Shown: in pieces, positions 1,207 to 16,719 of the stretch
Numbering within the stretch: position 1 is the first letter of the stretch
Layout of the letters: each line of letters begins with the position of its first letter
IMG/VR virus record: IMGVR_UViG_3300023242_000523
Location: 1 to 37,667 of that record
Reading direction: 5' to 3' (one strand)
Origin: a virus
DNA length: 37,667 bases
The notes under the pieces: model-generated
What the model saw: only the letters and a program-made list of their open reading frames with translations
The model's database searches: none
Told to the model about the DNA's origin: nothing
Translations under genes and position numbers: made by a program

Positions 1207-1375
1207 TTGGCTGCTAGAAACTATGGGCTGGGCCGTTGTGGGCCTGGCCGTGCTGGTCGCGTCGGGCAATCTGTCGGCCCTCGACGCGGCGGACGGCGGC
1301 GTGCGTAACCTCATGTTCATCGGTGGGCTGTTCTGCCTGATCGGGCTGTGGCCTACCAGACCGCCGCCGCCGTAG
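1190..1375 (+). CDS. Small two-helix membrane protein
   Basis: This is a 61-aa protein if started at ATG 1190. GGAAG lies about 10 nt upstream, and the start falls inside the end of the preceding gene in another frame. Two hydrophobic segments (about residues 13-27 and 39-53) are separated by a short acidic loop, with a proline-rich C-terminus, so it is probably an inner-membrane protein. A holin/antiholin or superinfection role is possible, since the holin lies in the same cassette, but nothing proves it. Its 3' end overlaps the 3' end of terL on the opposite strand by 23 nt. Confidence 0.6.
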   Translation: MNQYIDWLLETMGWAVVGLAVLVASGNLSALDAADGGVRNLMFIGGLFCLIGLWPTRPPPP

Positions 1376-2800
1376 ATCCGATCCCGGCTAGATCCGTGAG
1401 CGCCCACACCAGCCAGTCTAGCCGGTTAGGTGACGCCGCCGACGTAGACGGCGCGTATTCCATCAGTTCGGCCTCAAGCTCCGACAGGTCGTATTTCGGG
1501 TCGTGATACACCTTTTCGTTGCCCTCCTCGTATAGCGCCAGCACCGGCTCGGCCCGTGCGAATTTGCCCGTCGCGGCGTGCACTAGGATGATGTGACCTT
1601 TGAACCCGTTGTTGCGCAGATTGTCGCGCAGTAGATCGCCCCCGTTGTTTTTTTCGACCACCACCGCGTCGGCCTTGACGCGTTCGTACTCATTGATCAC
1701 GACCAGCGCCCACTCACGTGGCGAGTACCTGCCCGACAGATCGCGGTTCACGCTGTACGACCCGTCGGTGTAGCTCATCGCCGTGCCGATGCCGGTCAGG
1801 TCGCTGTCTGCGTTACTGCTCACCGCCGGGTCGACGGCGATCACGCACCGTTTGCGCCGCCAGGGCGTTGCGCGGTTCCGGGCCGCCTCAATGTGCCCGG
1901 TTTTCCACAGTGAGCCCTCAACGTCAAACTTTCGCGGGGCCTGCATCATCTGCGCGTTCCACTTTCGTTTATGCGACCTCAACGCCACTAGGTGCTCGTC
2001 GTTGTGTTTGACAGGCCACAACCAGCCCTCGGGCAAGCCGTGGTCAATCTCAATGCCGTGCGTGTTCTCCGCCGGGTACGCGTCGCCCTTGCCGATCAAC
2101 ACCGGCATGTTCAAGTGGTGCCACGTCTCGCCCGATCCGCCGCGCAGCAAGAACCCGGCCAGGTCGTCATAGTCAACCCGCTGCATAATCAGCACTACCG
2201 GCACCGCCTCGATAGCCAGGCGTGACGACACCGTGTCGCTGTACGCGTCGTTCAGGGCCGTGCGCTTGGTTTTCGACAGAGCGTCGCGCGGCTTGATCGG
2301 GTCGTCAATCATCAGCGCGCCGCTGAACCCGTCCTGCATGTAGCCCGCCCGGAACCCCGTGACCTGTCCGAACGGTGTGGTCGCGTAAACGCCCCCGCCG
2401 TTATTCGTCCACCACATATTTTTTGCGTTGGTGTCGTTGCGTATTTTGGTCGGCCACATCGCCTGATACTCGGGCGTCAGGATCGTATTGCGCGTCGTAC
2501 TGCTCGACAATCGGGTGAGGGTGTCTGAGTAGGTGAGGTGCATAAACCGGCTGTACGGGTACAGGGCGAGCCCTCGGGCCGTGAATCCGATCAGCGCCAT
2601 CTCGGTTTTTGTGTAGCCTGGCGGCAGTGTGATGATGAGTCGCCGAATCTCGCCCGAGTAGACACGGTCGAGCGTGTTCTGCATGACGCTATGGTGTCGG
2701 CCGACAATCATCCGGCTGCCGCGCTGTTTCAGGAAGTACCGATTAAAGTACACGCCGTCTGCCTCGCACTCTAATTTTCGGGCCGTCGTTATCGCGTGCA

Positions 2801-2801
<1 letters not shown>
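1353..2801 (-). CDS. terL: Terminase large subunit (packaging ATPase/nuclease)
   Basis: The 482-aa product is the motor that translocates DNA into the prohead and cuts the concatemer. The ATPase domain shows a Walker A-like loop LPPGYTKTE (59-67) and Walker B ALMIDDP (162-168), with VVLIMQRVD in the motif III/C region. The C-terminal RNase H-like nuclease has acidic residues D324 (IAVDPAVSS), E383 (VVVEKNNGG) and a late Asp in DWLVWALTDL. The start is GTG at 2801, overlapping the terS TAG by one base, so the two genes are coupled. Its 3' end converges with the + strand cassette. It is separated from the portal gene by about 3.4 kb of mostly counter-transcribed DNA, which is unusual because terL and portal are normally adjacent. 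Confidence 0.95.
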
Positions 2802-3337: not shown

Positions 3338-3367
3338 ACTATACCACGGCTTGTCACACTTCGGAAA
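3338..3367 (-). promoter_or_regulatory. Possible leftward promoter of the terminase genes
   Basis: On the minus strand a -10-like TATAGT (3343-3338) lies about 31 nt ahead of GTG 3307. A 17-nt spacer leads back to a weak -35-like TTCCGA. One copy of the GTGTGACA repeat falls inside the spacer, so a repeat-binding protein would occlude this promoter. The -35 is poor, so this is tentative. Confidence 0.35.
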
Positions 3368-3686
3368 CACGCGAGAATGTCCAATTTGTCACACTTCGCA
3401 ATCTGGCGGGAATGCAAATTTGTCACACTTGTCACACTTCAAATGCTTATTGTAGCCACAATAGGATTTTATACTTTTTTAGGCCCTTTTTATATTAAAC
3501 ACTTATAGCTAATTTATAGTGTGACAGTGTGACAAACCATACAGGCCGTACTTCTTAGCCGATTTCAGAGTGTGACACGAAGTGTGACAAGTGTGACAAG
3601 TGTGACAGCCCGAACAATTTGTCACACTTCGTGTCACACTTCATCTAACGACCTAGCAAGAGTGGGATCGCCGATTTGTCACACTC
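3351..3686. repeat. Thirteen-copy TTGTCACACTT/AAGTGTGACAA repeat cluster (iteron or operator array)
   Basis: Plus-oriented copies lie at about 3351, 3386, 3420 and 3429, then again at 3619, 3631 and 3676. Minus-oriented copies lie at about 3518, 3526, 3569, 3580, 3589 and 3598. Some are abutted and overlap by 2 nt, giving a 9-nt period, close to one helical turn. A perfect 22-bp inverted repeat (3569-3590 and 3619-3640) frames two further copies. The region is non-coding and lies between divergent terS and the replication-start operon. Such arrays serve as replication iterons or as operators for a DNA-binding protein, and both may apply here. Confidence 0.9.
3440..3517. other. AT-rich segment within the repeat cluster (candidate DNA-unwinding element)
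   Basis: This stretch is strikingly AT-rich compared with the GC-rich genome, with runs such as TTTTATACTTTTTTAGG and TTTTTATATTAAAC. It is flanked on the left by plus-oriented and on the right by minus-oriented copies of the repeat. Iterons beside an AT-rich segment, next to a primase/helicase gene, are the usual anatomy of a replication origin. This is inference from layout. Confidence 0.6.
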
Positions 3687-3691
3687 TGAGA

Positions 3692-3720
3692 TTGACGTCT
3701 GTGACGCCCTAGACTATTAT
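3692..3720 (+). promoter_or_regulatory. Promoter of the primase/helicase operon
   Basis: The -35 is TTGACG (3692-3697), followed by a 17-nt spacer and -10 TATTAT (3715-3720). The last repeat copy (3676-3686) abuts the -35, so repeat binding could regulate it. The leader that follows contains AACAACGAGCGCCACG (3738-3753), which resembles the leaders after promoter copies A and B. Confidence 0.75.
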
Positions 3721-3966: not shown

Positions 3967-6386
3967 GCGAACTCGCCGCCCGACTGTTTGCTGCGGGTTT
4001 GCCGGTGTTCCCGTGCCGCGCCAACAAGGCGCCAGCCGTCCCGAAAGGCGACAGTTGGAAGATCCACAGCGCCTACCAACCCGAAACGGTGCACTGGCCG
4101 TCTGGTGTCGTCGGTGTGCCCGTCCCTGCCGGTGTGATGGTCATTGACCTAGACACCTATAAGGGCATCACGCGGGCCGACGTAGACGGCTATCTCGGGG
4201 TGTGCCTCCCGTGGGACGCCGCACTGATCCAGACCACCCTGCAGGGCGGCCAGCACTACGCGTTTGCCTGCGATTGGAAATGCCGTTTCGGGTCCAGCCT
4301 TGACGGGTACAAGGGCCTTGATACGCGCACCGCTGGCGACGGGTACATCGCGACGGGGGACGGGTACACGTGGAACGGGTTCGGCCTGTACGCGCTGGCG
4401 CACCCCGAGGCGCTGCCCCGCATACCGGACGCGTGCCGCGCCGTGCTCGAAGTCGTCCGGCACGAACGGCCCCTGCAGCCCACCGACGCGCCCACGGCGG
4501 ACATCGAGGCCGTACAGGCCGCGTTATCGTTCATTGATCCCGGCGGCACGCGGACCGAGTGGGTGAAAGTCGGGCTCGCCCTGCGGCACTACTTCGCCGA
4601 CGACGAGCACGCCGGGTACGTGCTGTTTGACGCCTGGTCGGCCGGTGAGCTGTGGCGCGACGGGTGCCCGAGCAACTACATCGCCGAGCATATCGAGGCG
4701 CAGTGGGGCAGTTTTAAGGCCGAGGGCGACACGACGGTCGCCAGCCTGTTTTACGAAGCCATACAGGGCGGCTGGCTGCCCCCGACAACGCTTAACACCT
4801 CGGCCGCGTTCGGCGCCGGTGCGGCACCTGCCGACGCGTTCCGCGATCTGGTCGACGACATACAACAGGGCGGCGGCGATCCGAACCGCACACTGGATCT
4901 GGTGACGCGGGTCGCCAGTCTGCCCGCCGCACCGCTTCAACGGGCCGCGCTGTTAGCGGTCCTAACGCGTGAGCTGAAAGACGCCGGGCTGTTGACCAAG
5001 GCGGTACGCGCGCAGCTCGATACGGCGGCAGGCGCACCGGCTGCCCCAAGGGTGCCAGGCACTTACGGCCCGAATCACACCGAAAACGCGCTGCAGTTTC
5101 TCGGCGCGGAGTACGCGGGCGGTGCGCTGGTCGTCAGCGACCAGGTGTTCTACACCTACACGGGGCAGGCGTGGGTCAGCGTTGACGACGACGATCTGCG
5201 GCACCGCATCACAATGGCAATGATCGACAGCCGCCCGCAGCACTCAACGATCACGGGCACGTTTGCGATGATGGGCAGCCTGGCGCACACCGACAAGAAA
5301 ATTGGCGTGATACCGCCTAACCTGATCCTTTTCCAGAACGGCGTGCTGGATCTGTACACCGGCAGCCTAGCGCCGCACCATCCCGGCTATTTTACGACAA
5401 ACATCATGCCGTACGCGTTCAACCCGAACGCGCCGTGCGCAGGCTGGCTGGCGTTCCTGTACGAGGTGTTCGAGGGCGACCCCGAGCGCGTGGCGTTGCT
5501 GCAGGAATGGTTCGGGTACATGCTCTCGGGCGGGTACGCGCATCATAAAGTCATGCTGTTGTTGGGTGCCGGCCGGTCCGGCAAGTCGACGATAGGTCGC
5601 GTGCTGCGGCAAGTCGTCGGCAGCCAGAACTATTCCGGCGGATCGTTCGCCGCGTTCACGACGGACCCGTACATGGAAAGCCTGCGCACGAAACCCGTGG
5701 TGTTTATCGGCGACGCGGCGGCCAGCATACCGCGCCAACAGGTCGGCCAGGTGATTGAGCGGATTAAAACGATCAGCGGCAACGACGAGGTGACGTTCAG
5801 CCGGAAATACAAGTCGACCCTGTCCGAAGCACTGCCGAGCCGGATCACGATAGCGAGCAACAGCATACCGCGCCTGTTCGACGACTCGGGCGCGTTGGCG
5901 TCCCGTCTGTTGGTGATCCCGTTCGAGGTGTCGTTCTACGGCCGCGAGAATCTAGGGCTGTTTGATGAGTTGATGGGCGACTTGGAGGGCATCGGGCTGT
6001 GGGCTCTGCAGGGGCTCGCCAGGCTCAACGAGCAGGGCAGATTCACCGAACCGGCGGCAAGCCGGGCCGAGGTCCAGCACATCGGCGAGATGTACAGCCC
6101 GATGGCTGAATTCCTTGATGATGTGTGCACCTTTGACGCCAACGCGATATCGACATCAGACGAGGTCTACGCCGCGTACAGGGTGTGGGCCGTTGCTGGC
6201 GGCGAGGCACGGATCATGGCGCCGCGCACGCTGGTGAGCGCGTTTAAGGACCTGCTACGCGGTAAGGGCGTTAAGTACGGCGTACATCGCCGGGGTGACG
6301 TCCGCAGCCGAGGGTTCAAAGGTATCGCCCTACGCGAGCAAGACAGCGCAACGGTGGGCGCGTTTACCCCGAGGGCGGTTAAGTGA
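3963..6386 (+). CDS. Prim-pol primase fused to SF3/D5-type helicase
   Basis: This 807-aa replication protein has an N-terminal archaeo-eukaryotic primase/polymerase domain with acidic motif VMVIDLD (58-64) and GGQHYAF containing H98. A PriCT-like linker follows (about 180-260, with DPGGTRTEWVKVGLAL). The C-terminal half is a D5_N plus superfamily 3 helicase: Walker A LLLGAGRSGKST (about 531-542), Walker B KPVVFIGDAA and the sensor/arginine-finger region ASNSIPRLFDDSGALASR. P4 alpha-like proteins of this architecture melt origins and lay primers. The GTG start overlaps the HTH gene and its stop overlaps the next gene, both as GTGA. The adjacent repeat array is its likely target. Confidence 0.93.
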   Translation: MSELAARLFAAGLPVFPCRANKAPAVPKGDSWKIHSAYQPETVHWPSGVVGVPVPAGVMVIDLDTYKGITRADVDGYLGVCLPWDAALIQTTLQGGQHYAFACDWKCRFGSSLDGYKGLDTRTAGDGYIATGDGYTWNGFGLYALAHPEALPRIPDACRAVLEVVRHERPLQPTDAPTADIEAVQAALSFIDPGGTRTEWVKVGLALRHYFADDEHAGYVLFDAWSAGELWRDGCPSNYIAEHIEAQWGSFKAEGDTTVASLFYEAIQGGWLPPTTLNTSAAFGAGAAPADAFRDLVDDIQQGGGDPNRTLDLVTRVASLPAAPLQRAALLAVLTRELKDAGLLTKAVRAQLDTAAGAPAAPRVPGTYGPNHTENALQFLGAEYAGGALVVSDQVFYTYTGQAWVSVDDDDLRHRITMAMIDSRPQHSTITGTFAMMGSLAHTDKKIGVIPPNLILFQNGVLDLYTGSLAPHHPGYFTTNIMPYAFNPNAPCAGWLAFLYEVFEGDPERVALLQEWFGYMLSGGYAHHKVMLLLGAGRSGKSTIGRVLRQVVGSQNYSGGSFAAFTTDPYMESLRTKPVVFIGDAAASIPRQQVGQVIERIKTISGNDEVTFSRKYKSTLSEALPSRITIASNSIPRLFDDSGALASRLLVIPFEVSFYGRENLGLFDELMGDLEGIGLWALQGLARLNEQGRFTEPAASRAEVQHIGEMYSPMAEFLDDVCTFDANAISTSDEVYAAYRVWAVAGGEARIMAPRTLVSAFKDLLRGKGVKYGVHRRGDVRSRGFKGIALREQDSATVGAFTPRAVK

Positions 6387-11673: not shown

Positions 11674-12327
11674 ATGACGATCAAAATAGAATTCCCATCG
11701 GGCGAGACGCGCCTCGCTGGCCTGTTAGGCCGGGCGCTCATGGAGTACGCCGGGCACGTGGCGCCGATGGTCGGCACTGTGGCGGCCGACACCGCGCCAG
11801 CCGACACCGGCAGCAACAGCGCGCTTGACCAATTCCTTGACGCTGGCGAGACCGGCGGCACACTACCAGACGACGACGACGCCCGCGTTGACCATAAGGG
11901 CGTTGCGTTCAACCCGGCCTACTGCGGCGAGTCGGCCGACCCTTTCTACAAGGGCGGCAAAACGTCCGGCCAGTGGAAAAAGAAACGCGGCGTTGACGAG
12001 GGCGATTACGAAGCCTGGTACGCCGACCAGCTCGCCGTCAGTACGGCACCGCAATACGACGATGAGCCCGGCGACGAACCGAACACAGCCGGTGCGTTTA
12101 CGGCCGCCCCTGAGCCCGAGCCAGAAGTCGAGGCAATACCCGAGGACGCGGGGTCGTTCATGGTGTGGTGCTCGGAGAGACAAGCCAACGGCACGCTGTC
12201 GCCGGAGCAGTTAGCCAACGCATACGCGGGGCTCGGCCTGCAGATCGGCGATCTGTTTCCACCCACCACCACGAACCAGATCGCGGCCAACGTGCGAGCA
12301 GTCTACGCGGCGCTGTGCAGTGAGTGA
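11674..12327 (+). CDS. Acidic protein of unknown function at the head of the replication operon
   Basis: The product is 217 aa from ATG 11674, with AAGGA about 9 nt upstream; the longer frame to 11611 starts inside the promoter and is rejected. After a short N-terminal domain it has a disordered acidic stretch (LPDDDDARVD), a lysine-rich patch (GQWKKKRGVDEGDYEAWYAD), a Glu/Pro linker (APEPEPEVEAIPED) and a C-terminal helical domain. Proteins in this slot precede the DUF2800 nuclease in many phages, but the role is unknown. It overlaps the next gene by 8 nt. Confidence 0.8.
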   Translation: MTIKIEFPSGETRLAGLLGRALMEYAGHVAPMVGTVAADTAPADTGSNSALDQFLDAGETGGTLPDDDDARVDHKGVAFNPAYCGESADPFYKGGKTSGQWKKKRGVDEGDYEAWYADQLAVSTAPQYDDEPGDEPNTAGAFTAAPEPEPEVEAIPEDAGSFMVWCSERQANGTLSPEQLANAYAGLGLQIGDLFPPTTTNQIAANVRAVYAALCSE

Positions 12328-13489
12328 TCACGCGCCACTACCGCCCAGCGGTGCTCACGTGTGGGGGGTGTGCTCCGGCGCACCGCTCGCCGCGAAGCAC
12401 GCGCCCGCCGACCGATGGGACGGCCGAACCGAGGACGGCACCGCCGGGCACTGGGTCGCCGCCGAGGTGCTGGCGTTGCTGCGTGACGGAACGCCAAGCG
12501 CGTGCGACGACTATGTCGGGCAGACTGCCGAGAACGGCGTGGTCATTGACGCCCACATCGCGGAAGGCGCGCAGGTGTACGTCGACGACGTGGCCGAGGT
12601 CATGGATCAGCAGGCCACTGAGTACGACATGCTGATCGAGGAACGCGTCGACATGCCGCGCATTCACGCGTTGAACTGGGGCACGCTCGATCTGTCGATA
12701 GTGTCGCGGGCCACGGCAACGATCTGGCTTTGGGACTATAAGGGCGGCCACCGGTTCGTCGACGCCAGGCACAATTTGCAGCTCATTGACTACGTAGAGG
12801 GCCTTGTCGAGCGCCTAGGCATAGCGGCCAGCGCCGCTCACTGGTTCGTTCGGTTTCGGATCGTCCAGCCGTTTGCGTATCGCGAGAGCGGCCCGGTTGT
12901 GGAGTGGGCCGTGCGCCTGCCCGAGCTTCGTCCGTTTTTGGAACAGCTCAAACGGCAGGCCGTTGAGTCGCAGACTAACCCGACGCTCACCGCTGGGTTA
13001 CACTGTCGCGACTGCCCGGCGAACGGCCGGTGCACCACGGCGAAAGAGTTTCTGTATGCGTGGGGCGACTACACTCGCAGACCGTACGCTATGGACGGCA
13101 TGAGCGCCCCGCAGCTCGCCACCGAGCGCAAGTTGCTGCAGGATATGCTATCAGTCGGTAAGGACCGGCTCGCGGCCATTGACGACGACTTGACGGCCCG
13201 CATACAGACGGACGGCGGGGCAGGCACCGGCCTGGCGCTGCAAGCTGGCGCAGGCCGCGAAGTGTGGCGGGTGCCGTACGAGCAGGTCCTCGCGTTCGGC
13301 CAGCAGTTTGGCGCGGATCTCAAAAAGCACGAAACGATAACCCCGCAGCAGGCCCGAGCGTTGGTGCCTAAAGCATTAAAACTGGCGTTTGACAGCGTCG
13401 TCAAGAACATCACAAAGCGCCCCGTCGGGTCGCTGAAACTCATAGACGCGGCAGACAGCAAGACCGCCCGCGCTTTTAAAAAGGACTAG
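12320..13489 (+). CDS. DUF2800-type PD-(D/E)XK exonuclease (RecB/Cas4-like)
   Basis: This 389-aa protein has the RecB-family nuclease signature: H44 in TAGHWVAAEVL, GTLDLSI with D124, LWDYKGG with D139 and K141, and QLIDY. A downstream cysteine cluster (CRDCPANGRC) resembles the Cas4/AddB-type iron-sulfur or zinc site. In phages this family sits next to an SSB-like DUF2815 protein and probably resects DNA for recombination. The start is GTG 12320, overlapping the previous gene by 8 nt. Its stop is 3 nt before the next ATG. Confidence 0.88.
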   Translation: MSDHAPLPPSGAHVWGVCSGAPLAAKHAPADRWDGRTEDGTAGHWVAAEVLALLRDGTPSACDDYVGQTAENGVVIDAHIAEGAQVYVDDVAEVMDQQATEYDMLIEERVDMPRIHALNWGTLDLSIVSRATATIWLWDYKGGHRFVDARHNLQLIDYVEGLVERLGIAASAAHWFVRFRIVQPFAYRESGPVVEWAVRLPELRPFLEQLKRQAVESQTNPTLTAGLHCRDCPANGRCTTAKEFLYAWGDYTRRPYAMDGMSAPQLATERKLLQDMLSVGKDRLAAIDDDLTARIQTDGGAGTGLALQAGAGREVWRVPYEQVLAFGQQFGADLKKHETITPQQARALVPKALKLAFDSVVKNITKRPVGSLKLIDAADSKTARAFKKD

Positions 13490-13492
13490 AAA

Positions 13493-14392
13493 ATGCCTAG
13501 ATTTACAGACACGCAAACCCGTATTAATAACTGCGTCGTGGTTTGGGACGCGATAACCTCACCCGACGAGGCGCCCGGCGGCAAGGGCGGCAACGCCTAC
13601 TCGCTTAAAGTAGTGACGCGCGCCGATAACCCCGACTTGGCGATACACAATCAGGTCGCAACAAACTGTTTGGCCGAGTCAAAATGGCGCGGCACCCTGC
13701 CTAACAACGCGCGATGGGCGATCGGCGAAGTACGCGACGGCGAATTTGGCGGCCTGTTTCCCGGCCACGTTGTGCTGAACTGCAAAACGCGCCGCCTGCC
13801 GGACGTTTACGACGAGAACGGCGTGCTCAAGGACAATATGTGGTACGGCGGTTTGCTGTACGCGGGCCAGTCTGTTGACGTTCTGGTGCACGCCTACGAC
13901 TACGACATGGCGGGCAATAAGGGCATAGCCTCGGGCCTCGACGCGTTCGCCGTTAACGTCAGCCGCAACGCGCAGCGCCTCGATATCCCGAGCAGTGGCG
14001 GCGGTGGCGGCGGCGACACGGCGGGCGCGTTCGGCGGCGGCGGCAATAGCGGCGGCCAGCAGCCGAATACCGGCGGCAATAACGGCGGCAATAACGGCGG
14101 CCAGCAGTACAACAACCAGCAGCCCAATAACGGCGGCGGGTACAACCCGAACGGTAACGGCAATCAGCAGCCCAATAACGGCGGCGGGTACAACCCGAAC
14201 GGTAACGGTAACGGTAACGGTAACGGTAACGGTAACGGTAACGGTAACGGTAACGGTAACGGTAACGGTAACGGTAACGGTAACGGTAACGGTAACGGTA
14301 ACGGTAACGGTAACGGCGGCCAGCCGACGCAAGCGCACAATTTCCTGCCCAATAACGGCGGCGACAGCTACCACGACGACATCCCGTTCTAG
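13493..14392 (+). CDS. DUF2815-like ssDNA-binding protein with long Gly/Asn tail
   Basis: This 299-aa protein has an N-terminal OB-like domain (about 1-165: CVVVWDAITSPDEAPGGKGG, FGGLFPGHVVLNCKTR) of the DUF2815 type. A disordered tail of Gly, Asn and Gln follows, ending in the acidic tip DDIPF, which matches the SSB C-terminal tip that recruits partners. The tail includes a 48-bp tandem duplication and a (GGTAAC) microsatellite encoding Gly-Asn repeats. AAGGA is 8 nt before the ATG. It lies between the DUF2800 exonuclease and the polymerase, the expected set. The ssDNA-binding role is family inference. Confidence 0.85.
   Translation: MPRFTDTQTRINNCVVVWDAITSPDEAPGGKGGNAYSLKVVTRADNPDLAIHNQVATNCLAESKWRGTLPNNARWAIGEVRDGEFGGLFPGHVVLNCKTRRLPDVYDENGVLKDNMWYGGLLYAGQSVDVLVHAYDYDMAGNKGIASGLDAFAVNVSRNAQRLDIPSSGGGGGGDTAGAFGGGGNSGGQQPNTGGNNGGNNGGQQYNNQQPNNGGGYNPNGNGNQQPNNGGGYNPNGNGNGNGNGNGNGNGNGNGNGNGNGNGNGNGNGNGNGNGGQPTQAHNFLPNNGGDSYHDDIPF
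14117..14212 (+). repeat. 48-bp tandem duplication in the SSB-like tail
   Basis: Two near-identical 48-bp units (14117-14164 and 14165-14212) encode QQPNNGGGYNPNGNGN; the second merges into the GGTAAC microsatellite. In-frame length changes keep the reading frame open. Confidence 0.9.
14201..14314 (+). repeat. (GGTAAC)19 hexanucleotide microsatellite
   Basis: There are nineteen perfect copies of GGTAAC in frame, each encoding Gly-Asn, inside the SSB-like gene. Because the unit is 6 bp, slippage changes tail length by two residues without a frameshift. Such a perfect array is rare in a compact phage genome. The exact copy number could also vary by assembly. Confidence 0.95.
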
Positions 14393-14412
14393 CATTGAAC
14401 GTGCTACAATCA

Positions 14413-14435
14413 GCGCGGCCCACTCCGGGTCGCGC
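14413..14435 (+). other. Strong 9-bp RNA hairpin between SSB-like gene and polymerase
   Basis: GCGCGGCCC (14413-14421) pairs fully with GGGTCGCGC (14427-14435), with one G-U pair, around the loop ACTCC. It sits in a 59-nt gap that breaks the otherwise tight operon. No U-tract follows, so it is not a standard terminator. It could be an attenuator, mRNA-stabilising element or protein-binding site that sets polymerase level. Confidence 0.6.
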
Positions 14436-14451
14436 ATTACGGGGTTAACGA

Positions 14452-16719
14452 ATGCACACACAAGGCCACCAGATACCTGTCGGGCTGCCCGGCACGTGCT
14501 CGACCATCTGCGCGTCGGGCGACTTCGAGACATACAGCGAGGCGGGTTTCCGTCTCACTGCGGACAACAAAATCAAAGGCAACGCGGCAGACGGCAAGGG
14601 CGGCTTGCCCGTCGTCGGCACGCCCGTGTATGCCGAACACGTCAGCGCCGAGGTGCTGGTGTTCTGGTACGACCTGAAAGACGGCAAGGGCCGCCGACCG
14701 TGGTTTCCCTGCGCACCTAACCCGCTGGACCTGTTCGAGCACATCGCGGCGGGCGGGCTGTTCGAGGCGTGGAACGTCACTTTTGAGTTTTACATCTGGA
14801 ACCTGGTGTGCGTGCGAAAATACGGCTGGCCGCCGTTACCGCTCGAACAGTGCAGGTGCGTCATGGCACGCGCCAGGCGTAACAGCCTGCCCGCCGGGCT
14901 GGATAACGCCGCGAAGGTGCTAGGCACGCTGCAGAAGAACCCCGAGGGGGAGCGCCTGATTCGGAAATTGACCCGCCCGCACACCCCGACCAAGAACCGC
15001 CCGGCGATCCGATGGACACCCGCGACGGCCTGGCCTGACTTCGAGGCGTTCTATCGATACGGCGAGGGCGACGTTGGGGCCGAGGATGCCGCCGCAACGC
15101 GCATACCGGACCTTACACCGGCCGAGCTGGCAAGCTGGCAATTAGATCAGCGCATCAACGCACGCGGCGTGCAGGTCGACGTAGCGGCGTTAGACGCGGC
15201 GCTCGGCATATTGCGACAGACCGAGGACAAGTACAACGCCGAGTTGCAGACGATCACGGGCGGCGCGGTTAAAGGCGTGGGCGAGATCGCCAAGATTCAG
15301 GCATGGATGGCGGGGCGCGGATACCACATTGACAACATGCAAAAGCCCACGGTTGACGAGGCAGTACGAGCGGGTGACGCTCCGCCAGATTGCCAGCGCG
15401 TGCTAGAAATACGACAGGAACTCGGCGCGGCCAACGTCAAGAAATTGCGCACGCTCAAGCTGCAGGTGTCAAGCGACGGGCGCCTGCGCGATCAGTACAA
15501 GTGGTGCGGTGCGGATCGGACAGGCCGGGCCAGCGCGGGCGGCGTGCAGCTCCAAAACATCACGGCGAAAGGCCCCAAGTCGCAGTTGTGCTGCGCGTGC
15601 GAGCGTTATAGCGGGCAGGGTGCGCGGTGCCCCCGCTGCAGGTCCGACGACGTGGCGGCCTGCGTTGATTGGACCGTCGACGCGGTGGACGACGCAATTA
15701 AAGACATTATCACGGGCAGCCTTGACCACGTTGAGCGCGTTTGGGGCTCGTCGATAACGGTTCTGTGCGGCATCCTGCGCGGCCTGTTCATCGCTCGCGA
15801 AGGGCACAAGCTGGTGTGCGTGGACTACTCGGCGGTTGAGGCGGTCGTCGCCGCCTGTCTGTCGCGCTGTCAATGGCGCATCGAGGTTTTCAGCACACAC
15901 GGCAAGATATACGAAGCCAGCGCCGCAAAGGCGACGGGCATACCCTTTGAAACCATACTGGCGCACAAGAAAGAGCACGGCACGCACCACCCGGCCCGAA
16001 AGGGCGTCGGTAAGATCCGCGAACTGGCGGGCGGGTACGGGGGGTGGATCGGCGCCTGGCGCAATTTCGGTGCCGACGACTATTTCGACAGTGACGACGA
16101 GATCAAAGCCGACGTGCTGGCCTGGCGCGATGAGTCGCCCGAAATAGTCAATATGTGGGGAGGCCAGTTCGTGCACTGCGGGCCGGGCAAGTGGGACTAC
16201 CGGGCCGAGCTGTTCGGGTTGGAGGGCGCCGTTATCGAGGCAATCAGGAACCCCGGCCAGTGCTTCGCCGTGCAGGACATCACATACGCCGTCCACGACG
16301 ACGTGCTGTACTGCCGCCTGCCCTCGGGTCGGTTTCTGCACTACCACCGGCCCAGGCTGTCGCCGACCGAGGACAAGCTGCGGCGCGGCCCGGCAGTCAA
16401 GATCACGTTCGAGGGCTGGAATTCTAACAGCCAGAAGGGCGCCGTCGGCTGGTGGCGCATGGAGACGTACGGCGGGCGGCTGTTCGAGAACGTTGTGCAG
16501 GCCACGGCCGCCGACCTGCAATTTGATGGGCTCGCTGGTGCAGAGAGCGAAGGGTATGCTATTGTTATGCACACACACGATGAGGGCGTGGCCGAGGTCC
16601 CGCTTGGGTTCGGATCGCCGGAACACCTCACCGAGATTATGATCCGCCGCCCGTCTTGGGCGAGCTGGTGGCCGATACGCGGCGCCGGATGGCAGCACAA
16701 ACGATATCAAAAGGATTAG
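14452..16719 (+). CDS. polA: Family A DNA polymerase with 3'-5' exonuclease domain
   Basis: This is a 755-aa replicative polymerase. The N-terminal exonuclease has DFETYS (24-29) and AWNVTFEFYIWN. The polymerase palm has motif A VCVDYSAVEA (about 455-464), motif B region RKGVGKIRELAGGYGGW with the K...YG pattern, and motif C HTHDEGV (about 707). A zinc-finger-like insertion lies between the domains: CCAC and CPRC at about 383-400. A similar insertion is typical of one phage lineage of this family, from memory. It acts in genome replication with the neighbouring SSB-like protein and exonuclease. GGGG precedes the ATG by about 7 nt. Confidence 0.95.
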   Translation: MHTQGHQIPVGLPGTCSTICASGDFETYSEAGFRLTADNKIKGNAADGKGGLPVVGTPVYAEHVSAEVLVFWYDLKDGKGRRPWFPCAPNPLDLFEHIAAGGLFEAWNVTFEFYIWNLVCVRKYGWPPLPLEQCRCVMARARRNSLPAGLDNAAKVLGTLQKNPEGERLIRKLTRPHTPTKNRPAIRWTPATAWPDFEAFYRYGEGDVGAEDAAATRIPDLTPAELASWQLDQRINARGVQVDVAALDAALGILRQTEDKYNAELQTITGGAVKGVGEIAKIQAWMAGRGYHIDNMQKPTVDEAVRAGDAPPDCQRVLEIRQELGAANVKKLRTLKLQVSSDGRLRDQYKWCGADRTGRASAGGVQLQNITAKGPKSQLCCACERYSGQGARCPRCRSDDVAACVDWTVDAVDDAIKDIITGSLDHVERVWGSSITVLCGILRGLFIAREGHKLVCVDYSAVEAVVAACLSRCQWRIEVFSTHGKIYEASAAKATGIPFETILAHKKEHGTHHPARKGVGKIRELAGGYGGWIGAWRNFGADDYFDSDDEIKADVLAWRDESPEIVNMWGGQFVHCGPGKWDYRAELFGLEGAVIEAIRNPGQCFAVQDITYAVHDDVLYCRLPSGRFLHYHRPRLSPTEDKLRRGPAVKITFEGWNSNSQKGAVGWWRMETYGGRLFENVVQATAADLQFDGLAGAESEGYAIVMHTHDEGVAEVPLGFGSPEHLTEIMIRRPSWASWWPIRGAGWQHKRYQKD

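Follow-up and report, generated by a model that had tools for sequence, protein, structure and literature searches.

The repeat array and its neighbours

The window is a virus record taken over its whole length of 37,667 bp, to which all coordinates refer (Table 1), and its DNA has no similarity to known phages at E 1e-5. An array of the short word TGTCACACT is located in it between the leftward genes for TerL and a TerS-like protein and the rightward genes for an HTH_17 protein and a primase-helicase. The placement of an HTH protein and a Prim-Pol/SF3 helicase directly to the right of the array, proposed in the first-pass annotation, was confirmed by domain profiles. The TerS-like ORF gave no profile match, and its start is uncertain, with GTG 3370 (overlapping the first iteron), TTG 3337 and GTG 3307 as candidates.

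Exact copies of TGTCACACT number 13, all within 3352-3685 and none elsewhere in the window, and outside the array only two one-mismatch matches are found. Allowing up to two mismatches, TTGTCACACTT has 15 matches in the window, 13 of them in the array, as compared to 5.4 expected, and none of 100 shuffles reached this number. Similarly, the 8-mer GTGTGACA occurs 13 times in 450 bp, whereas in 300 simulations no 8-mer exceeded 3 copies. The copies are arranged in arms of opposite orientation around a core with 75% A+T, against 38% for the window. At the left edge of this core, iterons 3421 and 3430 abut with a 9-nt phase, which recurs at 3581/3590/3599 in the right arm, and at its right edge stands the 8-bp pair 3518/3526, followed 43 bp further by the iteron at 3569. 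Thus, the exact-copy map and the simulations bear out the earlier description of 13 iteron-like repeats in opposite arms around an AT-rich core, and its 9-nt phasing, coordinates and perfect 22-bp inverted repeat were all correct on re-measurement. As in origins of the P4/SaPI type, the window thus has several short iterons, oriented both ways, next to AT-rich DNA. The GC-skew check proposed at the same time was run across the window and gave no clear turning point that could be used.

Table 1. Features of the array locus, in window coordinates
Feature	Coordinates	Strand	Details
TerL (terminase large subunit)	1353..2801	-	phrog_38 E=4.6e-78
TerS-like ORF, 189 aa	2801..3370	-	between TerL and array; homologue adjoins TerL in L008/L128
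TGTCACACT copies	3352+, 3387+, 3421+, 3430+, 3518-, 3526-, 3569-, 3581-, 3590-, 3599-, 3620+, 3632+, 3677+		
Left arm	3352..3438	+	iterons TGTCACACT at 3352, 3387, 3421, 3430
AT-rich core, putative DNA unwinding element	3439..3517		79 bp, 75% A+T
Right arm, inverted iterons	3518..3607	-	3518, 3526, 3569, 3581, 3590, 3599
Perfect 22-bp inverted repeat	3569..3640		arms 3569-3590 and 3619-3640; built from iteron pairs
Three outer iterons	3620..3685	+	3620, 3632, 3677
Sigma70-like promoter TTGACG-17-TATTAT	3692..3720	+	consensus match only; faces HTH-primase operon
HTH_17 protein (AlpA/Xis-like), 69 aa	3757..3966	+	PF12728 E=1.4e-7; overlaps primase start
Primase-helicase, 807 aa	3963..6386	+	Prim-Pol + PriCT_2 + D5_N/DUF5906 SF3; likely initiator
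Helicase C-terminal winged helix, predicted	6126..6332	+	residues 722-790; AlphaFold2 model

Elsewhere in the window, a 299-aa ORF (13493-14392) resembles a single-strand DNA-binding protein whose linker is variable: its Gly/Asn-rich tail is encoded by a long (AACGGT)n repeat, and it ends in DDIPF. Together with the adjoining DUF2800/PD-(D/E)XK nuclease and DNA polymerase A, it occupies 12320-16719, an otherwise typical replication-recombination module.

A recurrent layout and a changing word

Primase homologues were taken from viral contigs and phage records, and in about 20 relatives there are arrays built from other words, TTGTNNNNNN in most cases, with a comparable layout: a tandem pair (8-9 bp), an AT-rich core of approximately 90-105 bp, an inverted tandem pair and then a step of 43-45 bp. 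At most homologous primase loci an array ranks first or nearly first among the repeats, and arrays assigned with hand-chosen seeds exceed simulated sequence in all 20 loci tested. Orientation flips across the core in 15 of the 20 arrays, and 14 contain the 43-45 bp gap. Of 40 gaps in the range of 25-70 bp, 16 measure 43-45 bp, with a p-value of 1.5e-9 that is naive, because the relatives are not independent. The core itself recurs in position and size class, with an A+T content of 0.61-0.82 in most relatives.

The words differ from locus to locus: TTGTGACGTT in L119, TTGTAACGCT in Alteromonas phage R9Y1 (L120), TTGTAACACT in L122 and L128, TTGTACCGCT in L130, TTGTAGTTTT in L139, TTGTGCCCC in Vibrio phage CKB-S1 and TGACCACTT in L125. 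Within this group the word of the window was found only in the partial contig L151, in a variant form. Hence, conservation of motif and spacing upstream of homologous primases, put forward earlier as the test of the origin proposal, failed when taken literally, because the letters differ, and held for architecture and spacing. The array accompanies the initiator gene across the relatives, with exceptions that include intervening genes, other positions and about six loci with no clearly assigned array (for example L123, L124, L132, L144, L146 and L148). The geometry is looser at VP16T-like loci, which have another helicase. In a more distant primase group (L152-L183), the top repeat of many members, such as TTTGCGCCC, CCCTAAGT and TTGGCCTTT, coincides with the 3' end of the primase gene or follows it closely, and these repeats are candidate origins.

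The two-unit 20-mer of the window is also found in 70 viral contigs, nearly all with inverted arrays. In 10 of them (group B), whose phages share the D5 helicase part, the array is placed between a sigma-like gene and a D5-type primase; the spacing in one member, L024, is 9, 9, 77, 9, 43, with the same 9/43 steps as in the window. In L050 the array is at the 3' end of the D5 primase. In another 45 contigs (group A; L029:3761-4597 and 44 others), TTGTCACACTT arrays lie directly against a Terminase_2 TerS gene. A D5_N match was undetected in the group A records searched, and in three of their proteomes no homologue of either D5 domain, AAA+ or C-terminal, was found. In the two members examined closely, genes for an AEP-TOTE primase, a UvrD helicase and DNA polymerase A lie several kb from the array.

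Arrays also occur at genes for other enzymes. In Rhizobium phage 16-3 a TGTCACGCT array adjoins the Prim-Pol/AAA_25 gene; about 13 copies of TGTCACGC in both orientations are located just 3' of this gene (L103:3200-3560), a candidate origin in a cultivable phage. A small inverted TGTCACACC/T array within the annotated DNA primase gene of Microbacterium phage Hyperion (L102:3479-3558) has counterparts in the records of roughly a dozen related phages. It is conceivable, if doubtful, that TGT-NNCAC-like words with inverted arms and an AT core form one origin code across unrelated replication enzymes, namely D5 helicases, the 16-3 Prim-Pol/AAA_25 protein and the enzymes of the AEP-TOTE primase and UvrD phages. 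Such a code would imply either that the origin moves as a cassette or that a shared binding factor has gone unrecognised.

Candidate readers of the array

In a comparison of 16 loci, similarity of the motif correlates with the identity of the helicase AAA+ and C-terminal parts (rho 0.73 and 0.72, Mantel p about 0.001), and no correlation was found with Prim-Pol identity (rho 0.15, p 0.17) or, in the 14 loci with an HTH protein, with HTH similarity (rho 0.15, p 0.22). This covariation is support rather than proof, because the signal arises from the deep clade split and vanishes within the main clade (C-terminal rho 0.18, p 0.16, not significant). Since motif similarity tracks the AAA+/C-terminal part and not the HTH protein, the predicted winged helix at the C-terminus of the helicase appears the likelier reader of the iterons. 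The alternative, in which the array is an origin whose iterons are read by the 69-aa HTH_17 protein that in turn recruits the helicase, draws on the HTH gene, which in almost every close relative overlaps the start of the primase gene, and on P4, where a gene annotated as excisionase and regulator likewise adjoins ori. It is nevertheless unlikely, given the lack of tracking and the finding that group B has the same motif and 9/43 spacing with HTH_17 not found in its full-length records searched (G010-G013), which also argues against the HTH protein as reader. A regulatory or accessory role is more likely for this small protein of the primase operon.

The position of the array between divergent operons, with the best sigma70-scan match of the vicinity at its right edge and comparable sites upstream of the HTH start in L119, L125 and L038, would also suit a repressor-bound operator for divergent early and terminase transcription. 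Such a role is very unlikely, as the sigma70 scan of the array gave only plus-strand sites, the AT core, inverted arms and 43-45 bp spacing look origin-like, and the top repeat of the distant primase group follows the primase gene. Autoregulation through the same sites is possible. The same scan, with no leftward promoter, did not confirm that the array covers the likely terminase promoter. The suggestion that replication start is thereby tied to the timing of packaging genes is not supported either, because in the L119 record TerL is approximately 9.8 kb from the array, which still stands approximately 0.1 kb from the HTH-primase genes. Least probable of all is that the terminase small subunit binds the array as a packaging (pac) site. 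In its favour are the adjoining TerS-like ORF and TerL in the window, the TerS gene abutting the same motif in group A and an array beside TerS in Proteus phage 2207-N35. Against it stand the distant TerL of L119, the group B array sites, where TerS was not found, and repeats of the same kind in the annotated origin of P4.

The origin reading and known systems

The array is best read as a phage replication origin of the P4-alpha/SaPI-Rep kind, recognised by the neighbouring primase-helicase, with a probability of roughly 0.8. The earlier proposal of a candidate origin is well supported, because a similar layout accompanies homologous primase-helicases in many phages and because the helicase of the window has homologues among the known helicases that bind origins and load themselves: it matches the SaPI5 primase-helicase with a profile E of 4.9e-25, and its AlphaFold2 model with a Foldseek target TM of 0.63-0.73, and the likely initiator is thus a primase-helicase of the D5_N/SF3 type with homology to SaPI5 or P4-family proteins. 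According to this reading, the primase-helicase would bind the 8-9 bp iterons, probably via its C-terminal winged helix, and the oppositely oriented arms may load two helicase assemblies that flank the AT-rich core. Melting of the core would follow, and the fused Prim-Pol would prime replication in both directions. Against the origin reading count the lack of a clear GC-skew turning point, the clade split behind the covariation, the group A arrays beside TerS in records where D5_N was not found, the 2207-N35 array, which adjoins TerS approximately 3 kb from the D5 primase of that phage, the looser geometry of the VP16T-like loci and the approximately six loci with no clearly assigned array. 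To our knowledge, most tailed-phage origins are unmapped, and a constant layout with a changing word offers a means of locating origins beside D5-type primase-helicases, with the matched motif-helicase pairs as a ready set for learning how such helicases read DNA.

In P4, whose alpha protein we take to belong with the primase-helicase of the window to the P4/D5-like family, the annotated repeats TGTTCACC are spaced by 10, 11, 22, 43 and 10 in ori and by 9, 43, 18 and 14 in crr. Both systems use short TGT-CAC octamers in both orientations, with spacings of 9-11, 22 and 43 bp in P4, and the HTH_17 gene near the array parallels the excisionase/regulator gene of P4. They differ in the word, since the type 1 iteron of P4 is TGTTCACC and that of the window TGTCACACT, so that the window does not hold a P4 origin in the strict sense; moreover, the P4 sites are split over ori and crr about 5 kb apart, whereas the window has one locus with 13 copies and a single AT core.

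SaPI iterons form two sets around an AT-rich stretch. The comparison with SaPIs concerns the helicase, its binding domain and the arrangement. SaPI Rep, to which the helicase of the window is homologous, and Cch2 bind iterons through their C-terminal domains, with Rep apparently as two hexamers (PMC7581432). However, the SaPI origin is located downstream of rep and the array of the window upstream of the primase-helicase. The SCCmec protein Cch2, also a D5_N helicase, requires AAGTG in direct repeats (PMC7581432), a word contained in AAGTGTGACA of the window as well, but the putative origin of that staphylococcal element has just three 5-nt iterons, and its primase-polymerase is separate. The earlier statement that no described origin has this exact motif stands for the open-access literature searched, where the two-unit motif is absent; the kind of origin, on the other hand, is known from P4 ori/crr, SaPI and SCCmec Cch2. 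The locus most likely represents this familiar type of origin in a phage lineage new to it, where the layout is widely conserved and the word changes rapidly.
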